Notes under the pieces: model-generated
Seen by the model: only the letters and a program-made list of their open reading frames with translations
What the model was told of the DNA's origin: nothing
Database searches by the model: none
Made by a program: the position numbers and the translations under genes
Shown here: in pieces, positions 1 through 6,057 of the stretch
How the letters are laid out: each line of letters starts with the position of its first letter
Position numbering within the stretch: the first letter of the stretch is position 1
Assembly (NCBI GenBank): GCA_018623675.1
Contig: JAAZVJ010000060.1
Coordinates: 1 to 6,380, forward strand
Source: Synechococcus sp. HW_metabat.54
GTDB taxonomy: Bacteria > Cyanobacteriota > Cyanobacteriia > PCC-6307 > Cyanobiaceae
Length of the DNA stretch: 6,380 nt
Reading direction: 5' to 3'

Positions 1-552
1 GAGTAGACCACCTGGCCAGCGGGGGGTGGGGGCCGGCAGCAACTGCAGGCTGTGGCCATGACTCAGAGGCAGGCTTTGTTCCTGGCGGATCACCCGCAGC
101 GATGGCAAGGCCGGCAGGGGAGGCCGGTTGTCGACTTCGCCTGGTGGCAGCGGTTTGCGCTGTTGCCAAAGCTCCTGCAGCAGCTTGGCCCCAGGGTTGG
201 AGCAGATCAGGGTCAGCTGGGGGTAGACCTCGGCCAGGCTTCGCAGAAGGGCGACCCGGTTGGGGTTGACGTGACCCACCACCACCAGCAGGGGGGTGTC
301 GCCTGCCGGCAGTGCTTCAGCGAGTGCCGGCAGAAAGGCGTCGCGATAGGCCGCTCCGGGGGGATGGACCAACACCGCTGGTGCGCCGTCGCCGGCTTCG
401 AACAACACGCTGTTGGCAGTGCTGCCGCGCTCCAGGGCGTATTCCAGCTCGAACCGGTGCCGCTGGGGGCTGAGCCCCCGCAGCGCCACCACCCCGGCGT
501 CTATCGGCAGCTGGATCGTGCGGCGGAGGGCGGCGGTGCTGGTCACGCTCAT
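1..552 (-). CDS. flv1: Flavodiiron protein Flv1, N-terminal part (3' end outside window)
   Basis: Partial gene: the first 184 codons are present, starting with ATG at 552-550, and the frame is open to the left edge. The translation (MSVTSTAALRRTIQLP...) follows the same metallo-beta-lactamase-like plan as the neighbouring Flv3. The di-iron ligand positions are degenerate: where Flv3 has HxExDH, this protein has H94-V-N96-P-N98-R99, and the later ligand histidine (H171 in Flv3) is replaced by R178 in PTPRWPGG. Loss of canonical ligands is the known mark of cyanobacterial Flv1 and Flv2. I choose Flv1 because the partner is adjacent and the extra small gene found between flv4 and flv2 in other cyanobacteria is absent. 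Flv1 is known to act with Flv3 in reducing O2 to water downstream of photosystem I. The start codon overlaps the flv3 stop by one base (TGATG), and the Shine-Dalgarno is weak (GGGGAA about 10 bases upstream), so translation is probably coupled to flv3. The flavodoxin-like and flavin-reductase domains expected after residue ~280 lie outside the window. Confidence 0.88.
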   Translation of the reverse strand, partial: MSVTSTAALRRTIQLPIDAGVVALRGLSPQRHRFELEYALERGSTANSVLFEAGDGAPAVLVHPPGAAYRDAFLPALAEALPAGDTPLLVVVGHVNPNRVALLRSLAEVYPQLTLICSNPGAKLLQELWQQRKPLPPGEVDNRPPLPALPSLRVIRQEQSLPLSHGHSLQLLPAPTPRWPGGLL

Positions 553-2324
553 CAGTAGTGGTTCCCCACTTTGCGGTGGTGCACGGCCGTCACCGCTTCG
601 GTGTCGGCCACATTGCCCTGTTCCACCACGGCATAGATGATCCAGTGATCGGGCCCTTCCATCCGCTGTTCCACCCGGCAGCCCAGGTAGGCCAGGGCGT
701 CGCTGAGCACCGGACCGCCATCGGCCACGCCTTCCAGCACATTGACCCCTTCAAAACGATCAGCTCCGGGCCGGAAGCGCTTGAGGAAGTGACGCAGCAG
801 GGGTTGGTGGTTGTCTTCCCGCAGCACGTTGAGAACAAAACGATCCCCCACTTGCATCAGGGTTTCGATGGCGCGGTCTTTGGCTACGGCCACGGTGAGA
901 CCTGGGGGCGTGAAGCTGGCTTGGCTCACCCAGCTGGCCACCATGGCGCTTCGGCGCAGGCTTTCTCCCTCCCCCTGGCTGGCGGTCACCACATACAGGC
1001 CACCACTGAGGCGTCCTAGGGCTTTATCGAGGTCGCCATCGAGGCTCTTCATCGCTGCGATGGTTTTCTCGCGGGTGAGAAGTTGCCCCAGGTCGGTGCC
1101 TGATTCCTCGCAACGCTGGTAGTCGGCCCCTGAGGGCAACTGACGGATGCGCAGGGGGGCGAAGGCTTCCTTCTGCCCTTGGCTGCGCAGTTGGTTGGCT
1201 ACCGAATCAATCGGTTCATCGTCGCCGCCGAATGCGTCGTAGACGCCCACCCATTGCTTGCTGTTCAGGGCTGCCAGCAAGGTGCCGATGGAGCTCTGCA
1301 ACTCGGCATCGGGATTGGCCGGCCAGGTGGGAACCACCACAGCCTTTGCATCGCCGACAAGGGCTGTGAGCTCCTGGGGATCGGTGGCTCGCAGGTCCAC
1401 CAGTTGCACTTGGGCTTCCGCTTTACCGATGCCATGGGCAATCGCCTGGCTGACGCGATCACAGAACCCGTATTGGCTCACGTAACAAACCGCGGCATAG
1501 CTCTCGCCCTTGCTGCGTTGACCACTCCATTCGCGGTAGTCGTTAATCCAATGCTCGAGGTGTTCACGCAGCAGGGGGCCGTGTCCCACCGCGATGGTGT
1601 TGATCTCCGGGAGCCCGTCCATGCGTTTGAGGGCCTGCAGCACGCTGCGGGCGTTGGGCCCCATCAGGCAGTCGTAGTAGAAGCGGAAATCAGGGGCAAT
1701 GGCGCCAGGGTCACTGTCGAAGACTGCGTCGGAGCAGTAATGCAGGCCAAAGGCGTCGCAGGTGTAAAGGATGCCGGTGCCGTGGTCGAACGAAAAGATC
1801 GTGTCGGGCCAGTGCAGATTGGGGGCGCTGAGGAATTCGAAGCGGTGGTGCACGCCGCTGCTGGGATTGGTGCCGAGGTCGAGTTCCTCGCCACTTTTGA
1901 CGGCTCGTGATTGGAACGGTCGGTGCACCTGGTTCTCCAGGAACTGAATGGCCACCTTCGAACCCACAATTTCAATGTTGGGGTTGAGGTCGATCAGATC
2001 ACCAATCAGGCCGGAATGGTCGGGTTCGGTATGGCTGACGATTAAGACATCGATGTCTTGAGGATCAATTTCCCCTTGCAGTAAGGGAATCCAGGTGTCG
2101 CGGAATTTCGCGTGGCTGGTGTCGATCAGGGCCGTGCGCTCTCCGCGCACCAAAAAGCTGTTGTAGGTGGTGCCGTTGCGTAGGCCGAATTCGATATCGA
2201 AACGGCTGCGGTCCCAGTCGAGGGAACGGATCGTGGTGGTGTCGGCAGCGATCGCCTCGCATTGCAGCGACAGGCGGGGGGCCACAGCGGAAGTTTCTGT
2301 GCTGCTCAGGTTTGCCGTGACCAT
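552..2324 (-). CDS. flv3: Class C flavodiiron protein Flv3 (O2 reductase)
   Basis: Complete 590-residue protein, a normal length for cyanobacterial class C flavodiiron proteins. Three domains can be seen. A metallo-beta-lactamase-like di-iron domain (about 30-265) has the full ligand set: H98, E100, D102 and H103 in SHTEPDHSG, H171 in APNLHWPD, D190 in YTCDAFG and H248 in VGHGPLL. A flavodoxin-like FMN domain (about 275-415) includes YVSQYGFCDRVSQAI near 281-295 and VPTWPANPDA at 331-340. A flavin-reductase-like domain (about 430-590) begins at ALGRLSGGLYVVTAS. In cyanobacteria Flv3, with Flv1, passes NAD(P)H- or ferredoxin-derived electrons to O2, giving water without reactive oxygen; it acts in the cytosol or at the thylakoid surface. 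The ATG at 2324 is preceded by AGGG about 4-7 bases upstream. Only 38 bases separate it from dctM, and flv1 follows with a one-base overlap. Intact ligands favour Flv3 (or Flv4) over Flv1/Flv2; the absence of the flv4-flv2 type intervening gene favours Flv3. Confidence 0.93.
   Translation of the reverse strand: MVTANLSSTETSAVAPRLSLQCEAIAADTTTIRSLDWDRSRFDIEFGLRNGTTYNSFLVRGERTALIDTSHAKFRDTWIPLLQGEIDPQDIDVLIVSHTEPDHSGLIGDLIDLNPNIEIVGSKVAIQFLENQVHRPFQSRAVKSGEELDLGTNPSSGVHHRFEFLSAPNLHWPDTIFSFDHGTGILYTCDAFGLHYCSDAVFDSDPGAIAPDFRFYYDCLMGPNARSVLQALKRMDGLPEINTIAVGHGPLLREHLEHWINDYREWSGQRSKGESYAAVCYVSQYGFCDRVSQAIAHGIGKAEAQVQLVDLRATDPQELTALVGDAKAVVVPTWPANPDAELQSSIGTLLAALNSKQWVGVYDAFGGDDEPIDSVANQLRSQGQKEAFAPLRIRQLPSGADYQRCEESGTDLGQLLTREKTIAAMKSLDGDLDKALGRLSGGLYVVTASQGEGESLRRSAMVASWVSQASFTPPGLTVAVAKDRAIETLMQVGDRFVLNVLREDNHQPLLRHFLKRFRPGADRFEGVNVLEGVADGGPVLSDALAYLGCRVEQRMEGPDHWIIYAVVEQGNVADTEAVTAVHHRKVGNHY
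2248..2255. repeat. HIP1 octamer (GCGATCGC)
   Basis: A single palindromic HIP1 copy in the first codons of flv3 (the EAIAAD segment). It is consistent with a cyanobacterial host but too short to prove it. Confidence 0.6.
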
Positions 2325-2362
2325 GACCCTATTGCTCGCTTAACTGAACTCTACGGAGATCT

Positions 2363-3754
2363 TCAGGTGAGCGGCCCGGGTGCCAGGGCTCCTGCAAGGC
2401 GAGGTAACCAGTCCACCAGTCCTGGCATAGCAATGAGCAGGGCCAGGACCGCCACTTGCAGCCCAACGAAGGGCAGTGCTCCTTTGTAGATATCCCGGGT
2501 CCCCACCTCATCCGGGGCCACGCCACGCAAATAGAACAGTGCGAAGCCGAAGGGAGGGGTGAGAAACGACGTTTGCAGGTTGGCGCCGATCAACACGCCG
2601 AACCACACCAGCGCCTCGGGGCCGAGCAGTTGACGGGCTGCGGGCAGCAACAGAGGCACGGCGATGAAGGCGATTTCGAAGAAATCAATGAAGAAGCCCA
2701 GCAAAAAGATGATCAACATGCTGAACACCAGGAAGCCGATGCGTCCGCCTGGAAGATTGAGCAGCAGCTCGGAAATCAGTTGATCGCCGCCGACGCCTCG
2801 GAACACCAGGCTGAAGGCGGTGGAACCCATCAGGATCGCCATCACCATCGAGGTGGTGCGCATGGTGCTTTCGCACACGCTGGAGAGCTGGCTGCGGCTG
2901 AAGCCACCGTTGAGGGCGGCCAGCAGCATGGCGCCCACAGCCCCAATCACGCCGGCCTCGGTGGGGGTGGCGATGCCAAAGAAAATGCTGCCCAGCACTG
3001 CCACGATCAGGGCGATGGGTGGAAGCACGGATTGGATCAGCTGCCATGGCGTGCTGCTACCGGCTGCTTCAGGTGGCAGCTGCGGTGCCAACTCCGGCTT
3101 CAGCGCACTGATCACCACCACGTAGATGGCAAACACGGCCGACATCAGCAGGCCGGGGAGTAAGGCTCCAATGAACAGATCCCCCACCGAGATGCCCAGC
3201 TGGTCGCCCAGCACCACCAGCACGATGCTGGGGGGAATGATTTGCCCGAGGGTGCCGGAGGCCACGATCACACCGGTGGCCAGGCTTTTGTCGTAGCCGG
3301 CCCGGAGCATGGCCGGGAGGGAGATCAGTCCCATGGTGGTGACTGTTGCAGCCACCACACCAGTGGTGGCTGCCAGCAGGGATCCCACCAGCACCACCGC
3401 GAGAGCTAACCCACCGCGCAAGCGTCCAAGCAGCCGGCCCATGGTCTCCAGCAGGCGTTCGGCGATCCCTGAGCTCTCGAGCATGGAGCCCATGAACACG
3501 AAGGCGGGAATGGCCAGCAGAGTGAAGTTGGCCATGATCCCCAGGATTCGTTGGGGTAAGGCGGTGACGAATTGAGGCTCGATTTCACCGCTGAGCATGC
3601 CCAGCAGGGCAAAGATCACCCCAATGCCCCCGAGGCAGAAGGCCACGGGAAAACCGCTGAGGAGCGCCACGATCAGCGCCAGGAACATCCCAGGGGCGAG
3701 TACGGCTGAGGGATCAATGCTGATGATCCAGCCGAGGGCTTCGATTTCGATCAC
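2363..3754 (-). CDS. dctM: TRAP transporter large membrane subunit (DctM/TakM type)
   Basis: 463-residue, very hydrophobic protein with roughly a dozen membrane segments, matching the DctM large subunit of tripartite ATP-independent periplasmic transporters. Family-type stretches include the glycine/proline-rich GVIVASGTLGQIIPPS at 161-176, GIATPTEAGVIGAVGA at 260-275 and TSFLTPPFGFALFYLRG at 395-411. DctM subunits carry the translocation path and couple uptake to an ion gradient, usually Na+. The start is GTG at 3754-3752, overlapping the dctQ stop in GTGA; a strong Shine-Dalgarno (GGGAGGG, 3763-3769) lies 8 bases upstream, which decides this start. The length is at the upper end for DctM, as is common in the mannitol/chloroaromatic (FcbT3/TakM) subgroup, and agrees with the TakP-like binding protein upstream. 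No terminator is visible between its stop and flv3. The subunit type is certain; the substrate is inferred from the binding protein only. Confidence 0.94.
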   Translation of the reverse strand: MIEIEALGWIISIDPSAVLAPGMFLALIVALLSGFPVAFCLGGIGVIFALLGMLSGEIEPQFVTALPQRILGIMANFTLLAIPAFVFMGSMLESSGIAERLLETMGRLLGRLRGGLALAVVLVGSLLAATTGVVAATVTTMGLISLPAMLRAGYDKSLATGVIVASGTLGQIIPPSIVLVVLGDQLGISVGDLFIGALLPGLLMSAVFAIYVVVISALKPELAPQLPPEAAGSSTPWQLIQSVLPPIALIVAVLGSIFFGIATPTEAGVIGAVGAMLLAALNGGFSRSQLSSVCESTMRTTSMVMAILMGSTAFSLVFRGVGGDQLISELLLNLPGGRIGFLVFSMLIIFLLGFFIDFFEIAFIAVPLLLPAARQLLGPEALVWFGVLIGANLQTSFLTPPFGFALFYLRGVAPDEVGTRDIYKGALPFVGLQVAVLALLIAMPGLVDWLPRLAGALAPGPLT

Positions 3755-4320
3755 AGCGCTGGCCCTCCCTGGTGTTGCCCATCGGTTGCTGGGTCGGTTT
3801 CGCCCTTCTGAAGTGCCATACGCAGGCGTAGGGCCTCGGCGACGCCTTGAAGGCCAAGCAACAGGAAGCCCAGAGGGATCAGGGTTTTCACCCAGGTCCG
3901 CGGCAGGCCACCAGGGTCTGGCGAGAGCTCACCGATGCTCCAGGCCCGTAGGGCTGGTGCGATCGCGATCGCCATCACCCCGAAGGCAAAAGGCAGCAGC
4001 AACACCAAAAGCCCCTTGAGTTCCTGGCGATTGCGCCGCCGTTCTGACCAGCGGCTTTGCAGCACATCCACGCGCACGTGCCCGCCTTTCTGCAGCGTCC
4101 AGCCGAGCCCCAGCAGGAAAATCAGATCGAACAGATACCACTGGGCTTCGATCAAGCCATTGGAGCTGAGGTTGATGCCAATTGCCGATCCCAGGTAGCG
4201 GCCGATCACATTCCAAATGCCAATGGCCAGCATCAGCAGCACGGCCCAACGGGCCAACCAGGCGGCACCCGCATTGATCCGATCGAACAGCCGCACCACC
4301 TGCGTTTGTGTGCTGCTCAT
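3751..4320 (-). CDS. dctQ: TRAP transporter small membrane subunit (DctQ/TakQ type)
   Basis: 189-residue membrane protein with four hydrophobic segments, roughly 20-40, 60-78, 103-125 and 143-162, the standard topology of the DctQ small subunit. The segment around WNVIGRYLG (36-44) and the WYLFDLIFLLGLGWTLQKGGHVRVDVL region (61-87) resemble DctQ proteins, where this subunit pairs with DctM and the binding protein to form the working transporter in the cytoplasmic membrane. The ATG at 4320 overlaps the dctP stop in ATGA, and AAGAGG (4328-4333) lies 7 bases upstream within the end of dctP, so coupled translation is likely. Its own stop overlaps the dctM GTG start. DctQ sequences diverge strongly, so the assignment rests on topology and position between the other two subunits as much as on motifs. 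Confidence 0.92.
   Translation of the reverse strand: MSSTQTQVVRLFDRINAGAAWLARWAVLLMLAIGIWNVIGRYLGSAIGINLSSNGLIEAQWYLFDLIFLLGLGWTLQKGGHVRVDVLQSRWSERRRNRQELKGLLVLLLPFAFGVMAIAIAPALRAWSIGELSPDPGGLPRTWVKTLIPLGFLLLGLQGVAEALRLRMALQKGETDPATDGQHQGGPAL
3959..3972. repeat. Two overlapping HIP1 octamers (GCGATCGC)
   Basis: GCGATCGCGATCGC holds two copies of the palindromic cyanobacterial HIP1 octamer sharing two bases, inside dctQ. A third copy is at 2248-2255 inside flv3. HIP1 is highly repeated in many cyanobacterial genomes, less so in marine picocyanobacteria. Confidence 0.7.
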
Positions 4321-5438
4321 GGTTTGACCTCTTGTTGGCTGTTGAACTGCGCCAGGGGCAGTTCGTTGATTCGGTTCCAGTTGATGGTTTCGCGTTGGAA
4401 CAGGCGCCAGCGTTCGAGCAGATCCCGGAATCCGGCATCGCCAGCAGCCAATTCAGCAAACATTTCTTGGGTGGCATCGCGAGCTGCCGTGAGGATGTCG
4501 TCGCTGTAGCGCTCGAGCTTGATCCCCTGGCGACCTAAGCGCAGTAGCGCCTCGCTGTTGCGCTGTTCGTACTCGCTGAGCATGCCCAGATTGGCCTCGT
4601 AACAGGCCGTGCTGAACATGGCTTGGTACTCCTCTGGCAACGCATCCCAGGCCTTGCGGTTCACCAGTGCACACAAGCTTGGGCCGGGCTCCCACCAGCC
4701 TGGGTAGTAGTAGTGCTTGGCCGCTTTGTGCAGGCCTAGCTTTTCGTCGTCGTAGGGGCCTGTGAATTCAGCGGCATCGATCGCTCCCCGTTCAAGGGCG
4801 AGGTAGATCTCCCCACCGGGAAGCACCTGCACATTCACGCCGAGGCGAGCCATCACCTTTCCCCCGAGCCCGGGGATGCGCATCTTCAGGCCTTTCAGCG
4901 ATGCCAGGTTGTCGACGGGACGTTTGAACCACCCCCCGAGTTGGCCGCCCGTATTGCCGGCAGGGAAGCTTTTGGTTCCGAAGTCGGCGAACAGTGCGTC
5001 CATCGCTTCATTGCCGCCCCCTTGATAAAACCAGGCGTTTTGCTGCTGGGCGGTGAGGCCAAAGGGAACCGCGGTGCCAAAGGCGAATGCGGGGTTTTTA
5101 CCCACGTAGTAGTAGCTGGCGGTGTGGCCGCACTCCACGGAGCCGGCCTGCACGGCATCCAGCACCTCCAGGCCGGGAACAATCTCACCAGCGGCAAAGG
5201 GTTCGATGCTGAAGTTGCCCCCACTCATCGCTTCCACCCGTTGGCAGATGGTTTCTGCCCCTCCATAGATGGTGTCGAGTGACACGGGCCAGCTGGTGGC
5301 CATCCGCCAGCGCACCTGAGGGAGACCACCGCTTTGGGTTTTCTCCGCACGACGGATCGTGCAGGCGCTCAGGGCTCCGGCTCCAGCGGCAGCGGCGAGG
5401 GCTTGCCCACTGGTCCGGAGCAGCTGCCGTCGTTGCAT
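4317..5438 (-). CDS. dctP: TRAP transporter substrate-binding lipoprotein, TakP-like (2-oxoacid/carboxylate)
   Basis: 373-residue periplasmic binding protein. From memory of the family it closely resembles Rhodobacter sphaeroides TakP, the 2-oxoacid-binding protein: shared stretches include SLDTIYGGAE (53-62), AGEIVPGLEVLDAV (83-96), GPYDDEKLG (227-235) and HYYYPGWWEPGPS (about 242-254). Residues matching the TakP ligand site are visible: Q166 (GGQLGGWF), R187 (LKMRIPG; the arginine that holds the carboxylate in DctP proteins) and E224 (DAAEFTGP). TakP has tryptophan after this glutamate; here it is F225. The N-terminus has a twin-arginine start (MQRRQLLRTSG), an alanine-rich hydrophobic core and a lipobox L23-S24-A25-C26, so it is probably a Tat-exported lipoprotein. 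AGGAG (5445-5449) lies 6 bases before the ATG. It is first in the dctPQM run. Pyruvate or another 2-oxoacid is the best guess; a related lactate-binding group means lactate or another carboxylate is also possible. Confidence 0.93.
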   Translation of the reverse strand: MQRRQLLRTSGQALAAAAGAGALSACTIRRAEKTQSGGLPQVRWRMATSWPVSLDTIYGGAETICQRVEAMSGGNFSIEPFAAGEIVPGLEVLDAVQAGSVECGHTASYYYVGKNPAFAFGTAVPFGLTAQQQNAWFYQGGGNEAMDALFADFGTKSFPAGNTGGQLGGWFKRPVDNLASLKGLKMRIPGLGGKVMARLGVNVQVLPGGEIYLALERGAIDAAEFTGPYDDEKLGLHKAAKHYYYPGWWEPGPSLCALVNRKAWDALPEEYQAMFSTACYEANLGMLSEYEQRNSEALLRLGRQGIKLERYSDDILTAARDATQEMFAELAAGDAGFRDLLERWRLFQRETINWNRINELPLAQFNSQQEVKP

Positions 5439-5527
5439 GGCGTGCTCCTGCGGTAGTCGCGACTGTCGGCGACCGTTGCTATTCGCAGCCTATTGATCGT
5501 TGTTCGACTGTCTCTGTTTTTGCAATC
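5439..5527 (-). other. Leader/promoter region of the dctPQM-flv3-flv1 run
   Basis: This 89-base stretch lies between the hsp20 terminator and the dctP start, so it should hold the promoter for the transporter run. I see no convincing -35/-10 pair: TTGCAA just after the T tract resembles a -35, but no good -10 lies at 16-18 bases. Apart from the ribosome binding site nothing else can be called. Confidence 0.4.
5445..5449 (-). promoter_or_regulatory. Shine-Dalgarno site of dctP
   Basis: AGGAG on the minus strand, 6 bases before the ATG at 5438. It fixes the start that carries the twin-arginine/lipobox signal peptide. Confidence 0.8.
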
Positions 5528-5556
5528 AAAAAAAGCCCCCCGCATTCGCGGAGGGC
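5528..5556 (-). terminator. Intrinsic terminator after hsp20
   Basis: Read on the minus strand, GCCCTCCGC - GAAT - GCGGGGGGC forms a 9-bp stem with one T-G wobble and a 4-base loop, followed at once by seven T residues (positions 5534 down to 5528). This is a classical Rho-independent terminator. It lies 67 bases beyond the hsp20 stop and about 90 bases before dctP, so it ends the hsp20 transcript and separates the two units. There is no T tract on the plus-strand side, so it works in the minus direction only. Confidence 0.92.
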
Positions 5557-5622: not shown

Positions 5623-6057
5623 TCAGCTTTCAACCGTGACCGACACCGTGGTGCGGTTGTCGGCCTTGGCCGCGGAGATCGCCAGGATGCCGTCGCGGTA
5701 GGTGGCCCTTAGTTGGTCGCGATCAAGAGGCTGGGCAAAGCGGAAGCTGCGGCTCCAGGTGCCAGGCCGAAATTCGCTGAACACTTGCTGTGGGGCTCCG
5801 TTGTTTGGAGCATCGGTTTCGGAGTTGGTGTCGTCTGCTTCGGAGATCGCGCTTGCACGACGCTCGGCGCTGATCACGAGGGTGCGATCGGTGGCTTTGA
5901 CATCGATGGAGTCGCGATCGACGCCGGGTAATTCGAGATGCACGGTGTAGCTGTTGGCATCTTCGAGAACTTCGGCAGCCGGGACGCGTTCGGCCTGGGC
6001 CACTTGCTGTTCGAGGCGCTCCAGCAGGTCGAAGGGGGATTGGCGAAGGGTGAGCAT
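5623..6057 (-). CDS. Small heat-shock protein, Hsp20/alpha-crystallin family
   Basis: 144-residue protein with the layout of bacterial small heat-shock proteins, ATP-independent holdases that bind unfolding proteins in the cytosol and, in cyanobacteria, also membranes. A short N-terminal arm (1-27, MLTLRQSPFDLLERLEQQ) leads to an alpha-crystallin domain at about 28-131. That domain starts with YTVHLELPGVDRDSIDV and ends with the typical ATYRDGILAISAAK (118-131), where the A-x-x-x-x-G-[IVL]-L signature sits. The short tail contains V138-S-V140-T-V142, which can serve as the I/V-x-I/V anchoring motif used in oligomer assembly. Residues 69-92 are an acidic, N/D/E/S-rich insertion in the loop between the domain halves, longer than in many homologues. 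I choose the ATG at 6057 because GGAGG (6065-6069) lies 7 bases upstream and the protein then begins as family members do; an open frame extends to 6303 but overlaps the preceding gene. Monocistronic, with its own terminator at 5528-5556. Confidence 0.93.
   Translation of the reverse strand: MLTLRQSPFDLLERLEQQVAQAERVPAAEVLEDANSYTVHLELPGVDRDSIDVKATDRTLVISAERRASAISEADDTNSETDAPNNGAPQQVFSEFRPGTWSRSFRFAQPLDRDQLRATYRDGILAISAAKADNRTTVSVTVES

Follow-up and report, generated by a model that had tools for sequence, protein, structure and literature searches.

In a 6,380-nucleotide (nt) stretch of the likely marine Synechococcus sp. HW_metabat.54 (contig JAAZVJ010000060.1; hereafter the window), the genes dctP, dctQ and dctM of a tripartite ATP-independent periplasmic (TRAP) importer stand directly before the flavodiiron genes flv3 and flv1, and comparison with relatives points to two neighbouring gene sets, in which flv3-flv1 would be served by its own promoter in the dctM-flv3 spacer and would probably receive some read-through from dctPQM. 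We regard this reading, which was drawn from comparative sequence analysis, as quite probable. The window is one entire contig; the assembly to which it belongs totals 1.36 Mb, with a rated completeness of 63.6%. On the minus strand, the window carries, in this order, hsp20, dctP, dctQ, dctM, flv3 and the 5′ part of flv1. An earlier inspection without database searches (the sequence-only reading) had described dctP-dctQ-dctM-flv3-flv1 as a run on one strand with junctions of a 4-base overlap, a 4-base overlap, a 38-base gap and a 1-base overlap, with which the coordinates obtained here agree. It had also proposed that organic-acid uptake could be expressed together with an O2-reducing valve, the main alternative being chance adjacency with a flv promoter inside dctM.

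The evidence for a separate flv promoter comes from the hexamer TAnAGT, which was counted at −44 to −24 from the flv3 ATG in distinct upstream sequences, 45 with dctM and 95 without dctM seen. The hexamer was present in 33 of the 45 and 76 of the 95 sequences, while dinucleotide shuffles of the two sets gave means of only 0.84 and 0.55 matches, respectively, with a maximum of 4. After clustering at 60% identity, it was found in 19/31 clusters with dctM and 36/53 without, and was the commonest one-wildcard hexamer in the flv3 upstream stretch (55/84 clusters). Its positions span −41 to −27, with −29 being the most frequent (52/109 occurrences), and a cTnC stretch often precedes it. The element was present with differing upstream neighbours, namely dctM, hsp20 or a divergent Nramp-family gene, and because it stands there whatever the upstream neighbour is, flv3-flv1 probably has its own promoter. 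TAnAGT fits a −10 element, and a cyanobacterial promoter class with the −10 hexamer alone is described in part of a review (PMC2758279). Used as a −10 hexamer, it would place the transcription start some 17 nt upstream of the flv3 ATG, so providing a concrete predicted flv3 start site. Thus, the alternative named in the sequence-only reading, a separate flv promoter, appears for the most part correct; the difference is that the conserved element was found in the spacer instead of in dctM. A promoter inside dctM is therefore not needed, the synonymous sites at the dctM 3′ end not having been examined for it.

Intrinsic terminators were searched for by one rule in all spacers, with three mononucleotide shuffles per set. 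A terminator-like hairpin was found in all 18 hsp20-dctP spacers, including that of the window, in 16 of 31 hsp20-flv3 spacers without TRAP genes, and in 0 of 45 distinct dctM-flv3 spacers; one weak hairpin picked up in G071 by the first scan was dropped by the stricter test. Since shuffled spacers yielded only 0–1 matches per set, the hsp20 terminators represent a real signal, whereas the zero at dctM-flv3 is no more than expected of spacers this short (median 68 bases), which give 0–1 of 45 matches even when shuffled. The claim that no terminator lies between dctM and flv3 holds, as the scan of the window's own spacer found no terminator-like site and agrees with the 45 spacers. Without an intrinsic stop after dctM, some read-through from transcripts started at dctP would be expected, and read-through from dctPQM into flv3-flv1 is thus possible. 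It is here that the proposed expression together still stands, and co-expression brought about in this way is plausible.

The relatives searched were 149 genomes, with an E value of up to 1e-60 as the threshold for Flv3-like proteins. These were found in 142 of the 149 genomes, and DctM and DctP in 69 each; 50 of the 69 DctM-bearing genomes are from the same family as the window. Of these 50, all but G029 and G032, which contig ends make undecidable, could be judged, and in 45 of the remaining 48, covering 27 genus codes, dctM ends directly before flv3 on the same strand. The sequence-only reading had asked whether the adjacency is retained in relatives; it is, and the named ones include Synechococcus and Prochlorococcus labels. 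The gap between dctM and flv3 measured 33–113 bases in 44 of the 45 loci, with starts chosen by a rule that was wrong in a few loci, such as G031 (gap of −35), G075 (hexamer at −12), and L077, L103 and L130 (no ATG). The TRAP genes and flv3 were not neighbours in three same-family genomes (G038, G039 and G054), and no adjacency was seen in the 19 DctM genomes outside the family when DctM was compared with the best Flv3 match listed (the listing has no Flv3 match for G145), several of these genomes having the two on different contigs. Among 80 named Flv3 loci, dctM preceded flv3 in 7 and did not in 73, some of the latter having little upstream DNA and many being titled Cyanobium, Vulcanococcus or lake metagenome-assembled genome. 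The adjacency exceeds chance, while the 45 cases are not independent events because of common ancestry. They include G001, which has a shortened DctM, and G023, in which only the dctM 3′ end remains (39 residues matched) and 297 bases separate the end of hsp20 from flv3; beside this dctM scar, G023 retains a full-length flv3 with the TAnAGT element.

These observations could also be taken as one functional operon, in which dctPQM-flv3-flv1 would be transcribed mainly from a dctP promoter, with organic-acid uptake and the O2 valve rising together. As in a five-gene operon, the genes lie on the same strand with short gaps and no terminator, the dctM-flv3 side being terminator-free in 45/45 spacers and the dctP 5′ side closed in 18/18, and both the adjacency in 45/48 genomes and the gaps of 33–113 bases in 44/45 loci accord with it. 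Such an operon would, however, contain no internal promoter, whereas a predicted one stands before flv3 and is conserved with and without dctM; besides, Flv3 is retained without TRAP, flv3 persists in G023 next to what is left of dctM, and terminators are no scarcer in these spacers than in shuffled ones. We consider a functional operon of this kind improbable. The sequence-only reading is accordingly retained in part: its gene calls, the 2-oxoacid type of the binding protein, the open junction and the retained adjacency are borne out, but expression together as originally stated conflicts with a flv3 promoter-like element that is present irrespective of dctM and with the occurrence of the two proteins in good-quality genomes, 111/111 for Flv3-like proteins against 44/111 for DctM. 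A predicted separate flv promoter is the better reading. In operons with internal promoters, that is, suboperons, genes likewise stand head to tail without a terminator and with an internal start, as predicted for the window; it differs in that its upstream genes are an optional cassette and that its internal start is a prediction from sequence.

Several points weigh against an own flv3 promoter. Strict TAnAGT is missing in 12 of the 45 upstream sequences with dctM, all outside the window's genus, and in 19 of the 95 without dctM, which are of mixed origin, although a few of the misses are start codons wrongly chosen by the rule. The looser pattern TAnnnT, for which there was no shuffle control, occurred in 38/45 and 89/95, respectively. 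In addition, a generic sigma-70 scan of the window gave no promoter, a canonical −35 was not conserved upstream of flv3 in the compared sequences, and the absence of terminators in 45/45 spacers would fit a true five-gene operon as well.

The gene pair was further found to lie within a longer syntenic block, in the order of SNF2 helicase, SWIM-finger gene (a match of 20.3 bits, with a cut-off of 19.6), MEKHLA, hsp20, an optional divergent Nramp-family gene, the optional TRAP trio, flv3, flv1, in some loci rubrerythrin, and an FMN reductase. For 38 TRAP-flv3 loci, 6 kb or more of DNA before flv3 was available; the SWIM-finger gene was found upstream on the same strand in all 38 and hsp20 in 17; hsp20 was not found in most TRAP-bearing family genomes outside the window's genus, and stands directly before flv3 in many loci without TRAP. 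Upstream genes without an evident role in O2 reduction are therefore linked as tightly as flv3. As the dctM-flv3 linkage is no tighter than that of dctP to the SWIM-finger gene, being neighbours is in itself a weak argument for a functional tie, and block synteny would lead one to expect the retained order. In its strongest form, this argument would make the adjacency nothing more than a consequence of a stable stretch of chromosome, with no shared expression or function. The similar linkage of the SNF2, SWIM-finger, MEKHLA and, where present, hsp20 genes speaks for it, as do G038, where TRAP follows hsp20 in the same block and flv3 is on another contig, and G039 and G054, where TRAP is away from flv3. 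It is nonetheless quite unlikely in our judgement, since no spacer holds a terminator-like site and some read-through would be expected, and since the form of the flv3 5′ end follows the presence of TRAP.

This last point emerged from a close-relative set of 31 genomes, 29 of the window's genus including the window genome and 2 of a neighbouring genus. Flv3 has 590–591 residues, with a longer N-terminus, in 19/19 close relatives carrying dctM or its remnant at flv3, and 580–584 residues in the 11 close relatives without TRAP and in G029, whose flv3 contig is without TRAP (long form in 0/12). In a comparison aimed at possible recombination at the flv3 start, TRAP status sorted the first 90 nt of the gene but not clearly the remainder. 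The start form thus tracks TRAP, as if TRAP and the flv3 5′ end had been inherited, exchanged or lost together. An unrooted, quick-method Flv3 tree covering 80 genomes of the family shows at least 11 changes of TRAP presence while flv3 stays, and 7 or more changes are required for the label 'none' when the starred branches alone are counted; as the tree is unrooted and many of its forks are weak, these changes were not assigned as a number of losses. In the DctM tree, G039 groups with G054, both having TRAP elsewhere, while G078, with TRAP before flv3, forms a separate lineage with G038.

The importer has the full set of TakP-type subunits, namely DctP (PF03480), DctQ (PF04290) and DctM (PF06808 and TIGR00786, the latter matched at 371 bits, above the cut-off). 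The closest solved relative of DctP is PDB 7ug8 (650 bits), deposited under the name 'Ketoacid-binding protein', and the compared 7ug8 fragment is an exact match to dctP of the relative G020, where dctQ, dctM and flv3 follow in the same locus order as in the window. DctP also strongly matches TakP of Rhodobacter sphaeroides (PDB 2hzk/2hzl; 351 bits with 2hzk). The TakP paper (PMC1839085) places Tyr100, Gln156, Arg177, Glu214, Trp215 (main chain) and Glu240 around sodium-pyruvate, with Trp215 giving the cation only its main-chain carbonyl; five of the six are identical in DctP (Y110, Q166, R187, E224 and E250), and the sixth, W215, is replaced by F225. DctP further differs from TakP in a lipoprotein-type signal suggested by eye and in having its genes before flv3. 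Based on the 7ug8 and TakP matches, the conserved pocket residues and the match of the 7ug8 fragment to G020 dctP, the substrate is likely a 2-oxoacid, which is consistent with the TakP-like TRAP system named in the sequence-only reading.

Flv3 combines three domains in one chain: a lactamase-like domain (PF19583/PF00753), a flavodoxin-like domain at residues 279–408, whose match is just below the Pfam cut-off (23.7 versus 25 bits), and a flavin reductase domain (PF01613). It matches the flavodiiron core of 6h0c at 224 bits and has the canonical diiron motif SHTEPDHSG at residue 97. No Pfam or NCBIfam family was matched by the 184-residue Flv1 fragment; it reads the non-canonical GHVNPNR where Flv3 has SHTEPDH, this being the one motif read for Flv1, and its name is owed to this motif and to its position after flv3. 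In relatives, flv1 lies downstream of flv3 too. According to the portion of a 2015 review covering these operons (PMC4390876), the order flv3-flv1 is that of most alpha-cyanobacteria, and diiron ligands are canonical in Flv3 and non-canonical in Flv1; the window has the same gene order and motif pattern, while TRAP genes go unmentioned in that portion on flv3-flv1 operons, where 'transporter' occurs 0 times. In the literature searched, which omits most subscription papers, no paper on the TRAP-flv3-flv1 arrangement was found; its component parts are already known.

Taken as two gene sets, the locus would work as follows. DctP would capture 2-oxoacids along with a cation, and DctQM would then import them with sodium, while Flv3 with Flv1 would hand surplus photosynthetic electrons to O2, forming water. 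The importer would be an optional cassette, whose position before flv3 would reflect block synteny and at most mild co-expression, and importer and valve probably form a neighbourhood that has been conserved and in which read-through may occur, not an obligatory functional unit. More speculatively, and with a rather low probability, the importer could be a plug-in cassette placed after the hsp20 terminator and ahead of the flv3 promoter which, having no terminator itself, would make the valve a two-input set driven by its own promoter and by importer read-through; picocyanobacteria with the cassette would then automatically raise O2 reduction on organic-acid uptake. Were read-through real, a presence/absence polymorphism would couple mixotrophic organic-acid uptake to the main O2-reducing electron outlet. 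Were it not, the locus would serve as a warning that adjacency over 27 genus codes is explicable by block synteny, with a promoter-like element suggesting independence of the downstream genes.

Table 1. Features of the 6,380-nt window
Feature	Position	Strand	Remarks
flv1, first 184 codons	1..552	-	cut by contig end; 1-base overlap with flv3
flv3, class C flavodiiron protein	552..2324	-	590 aa; three-domain matches; canonical diiron motif
dctM-flv3 spacer	2325-2362		38-base gap
TAGAGT, predicted -10 element of flv3	2348..2353	-	in dctM-flv3 spacer; comparative
dctM, large TRAP membrane subunit	2363..3754	-	463 aa; GTG start; TIGR00786, PF06808
dctQ, small TRAP membrane subunit	3751..4320	-	189 aa; PF04290; 4-base overlap on each side
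dctP, likely TakP-like (2-oxoacid type) TRAP solute-binding protein	4317..5438	-	373 aa; PF03480, PDB 7ug8/2hzk matches
Inverted repeat in predicted dctP 5′ leader	5456..5473	-	directly before likely ribosome-binding site
Intrinsic terminator-like hairpin	5535..5556	-	between hsp20 and dctP; terminator scan
hsp20	5623..6057	-	PF00011; upstream neighbour of dctP

Rfam and tRNA scans of the window gave no match. At its right edge, the final codons of an apparent MEKHLA-domain gene were recognized by eye from the gene of relatives. The inverted repeat before dctP may form a conserved hairpin: by eye, its stem reads GTCGCC/GGCGAC or GTCGAT/ATCGAC between clades with the pairing retained (genus relatives, e.g., L186, L190 and L061).

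The shortened DctM of G001 (L191; 436 versus 463 residues) results from an in-frame deletion of 27 residues, with dctP, dctQ and flv3 present; a frameshift, considered because DctM gave two matches, was rejected as both lie in one frame, and G001 was not counted as a broken copy. In G029 (L211 and L212), the TRAP trio is on a 3.1 kb contig, with a DctM branch longer than its neighbours, and the flv3 contig has the TRAP-less layout; given a listed contamination of 3% for G029, the short TRAP contig may be foreign.

The spacing of flv3 and flv1 was at most 15 bases in 64 of 79 loci (one genome, G010 and L072, being counted twice). In 10 of the 79 (L191, L183, L181, L061, L063, L215, L203, L205, L207 and L208) the two genes are >300 bases apart, separated by open reading frames for methyltransferase-like, dioxygenase-like, solute-binding-like or small proteins as judged by eye, so that the junction accepts insertions in some lineages. 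Within the block, a divergent Nramp-family transporter gene occupies the slot of the TRAP trio between hsp20 and flv3 in L193-L200 and L072, and lies before hsp20 instead in the G014/G020 group. In L173 (G047, without TRAP), where the usual block is broken and a divergent alanyl-tRNA-synthetase-like gene (by eye) lies upstream of flv3, TAnAGT is still found at −29. In G039 and G054 (L145 and L151), the TRAP trio directly follows what by eye is a glutamate-1-semialdehyde aminomutase-like C-terminus, which suggests a second place of the TRAP cassette.

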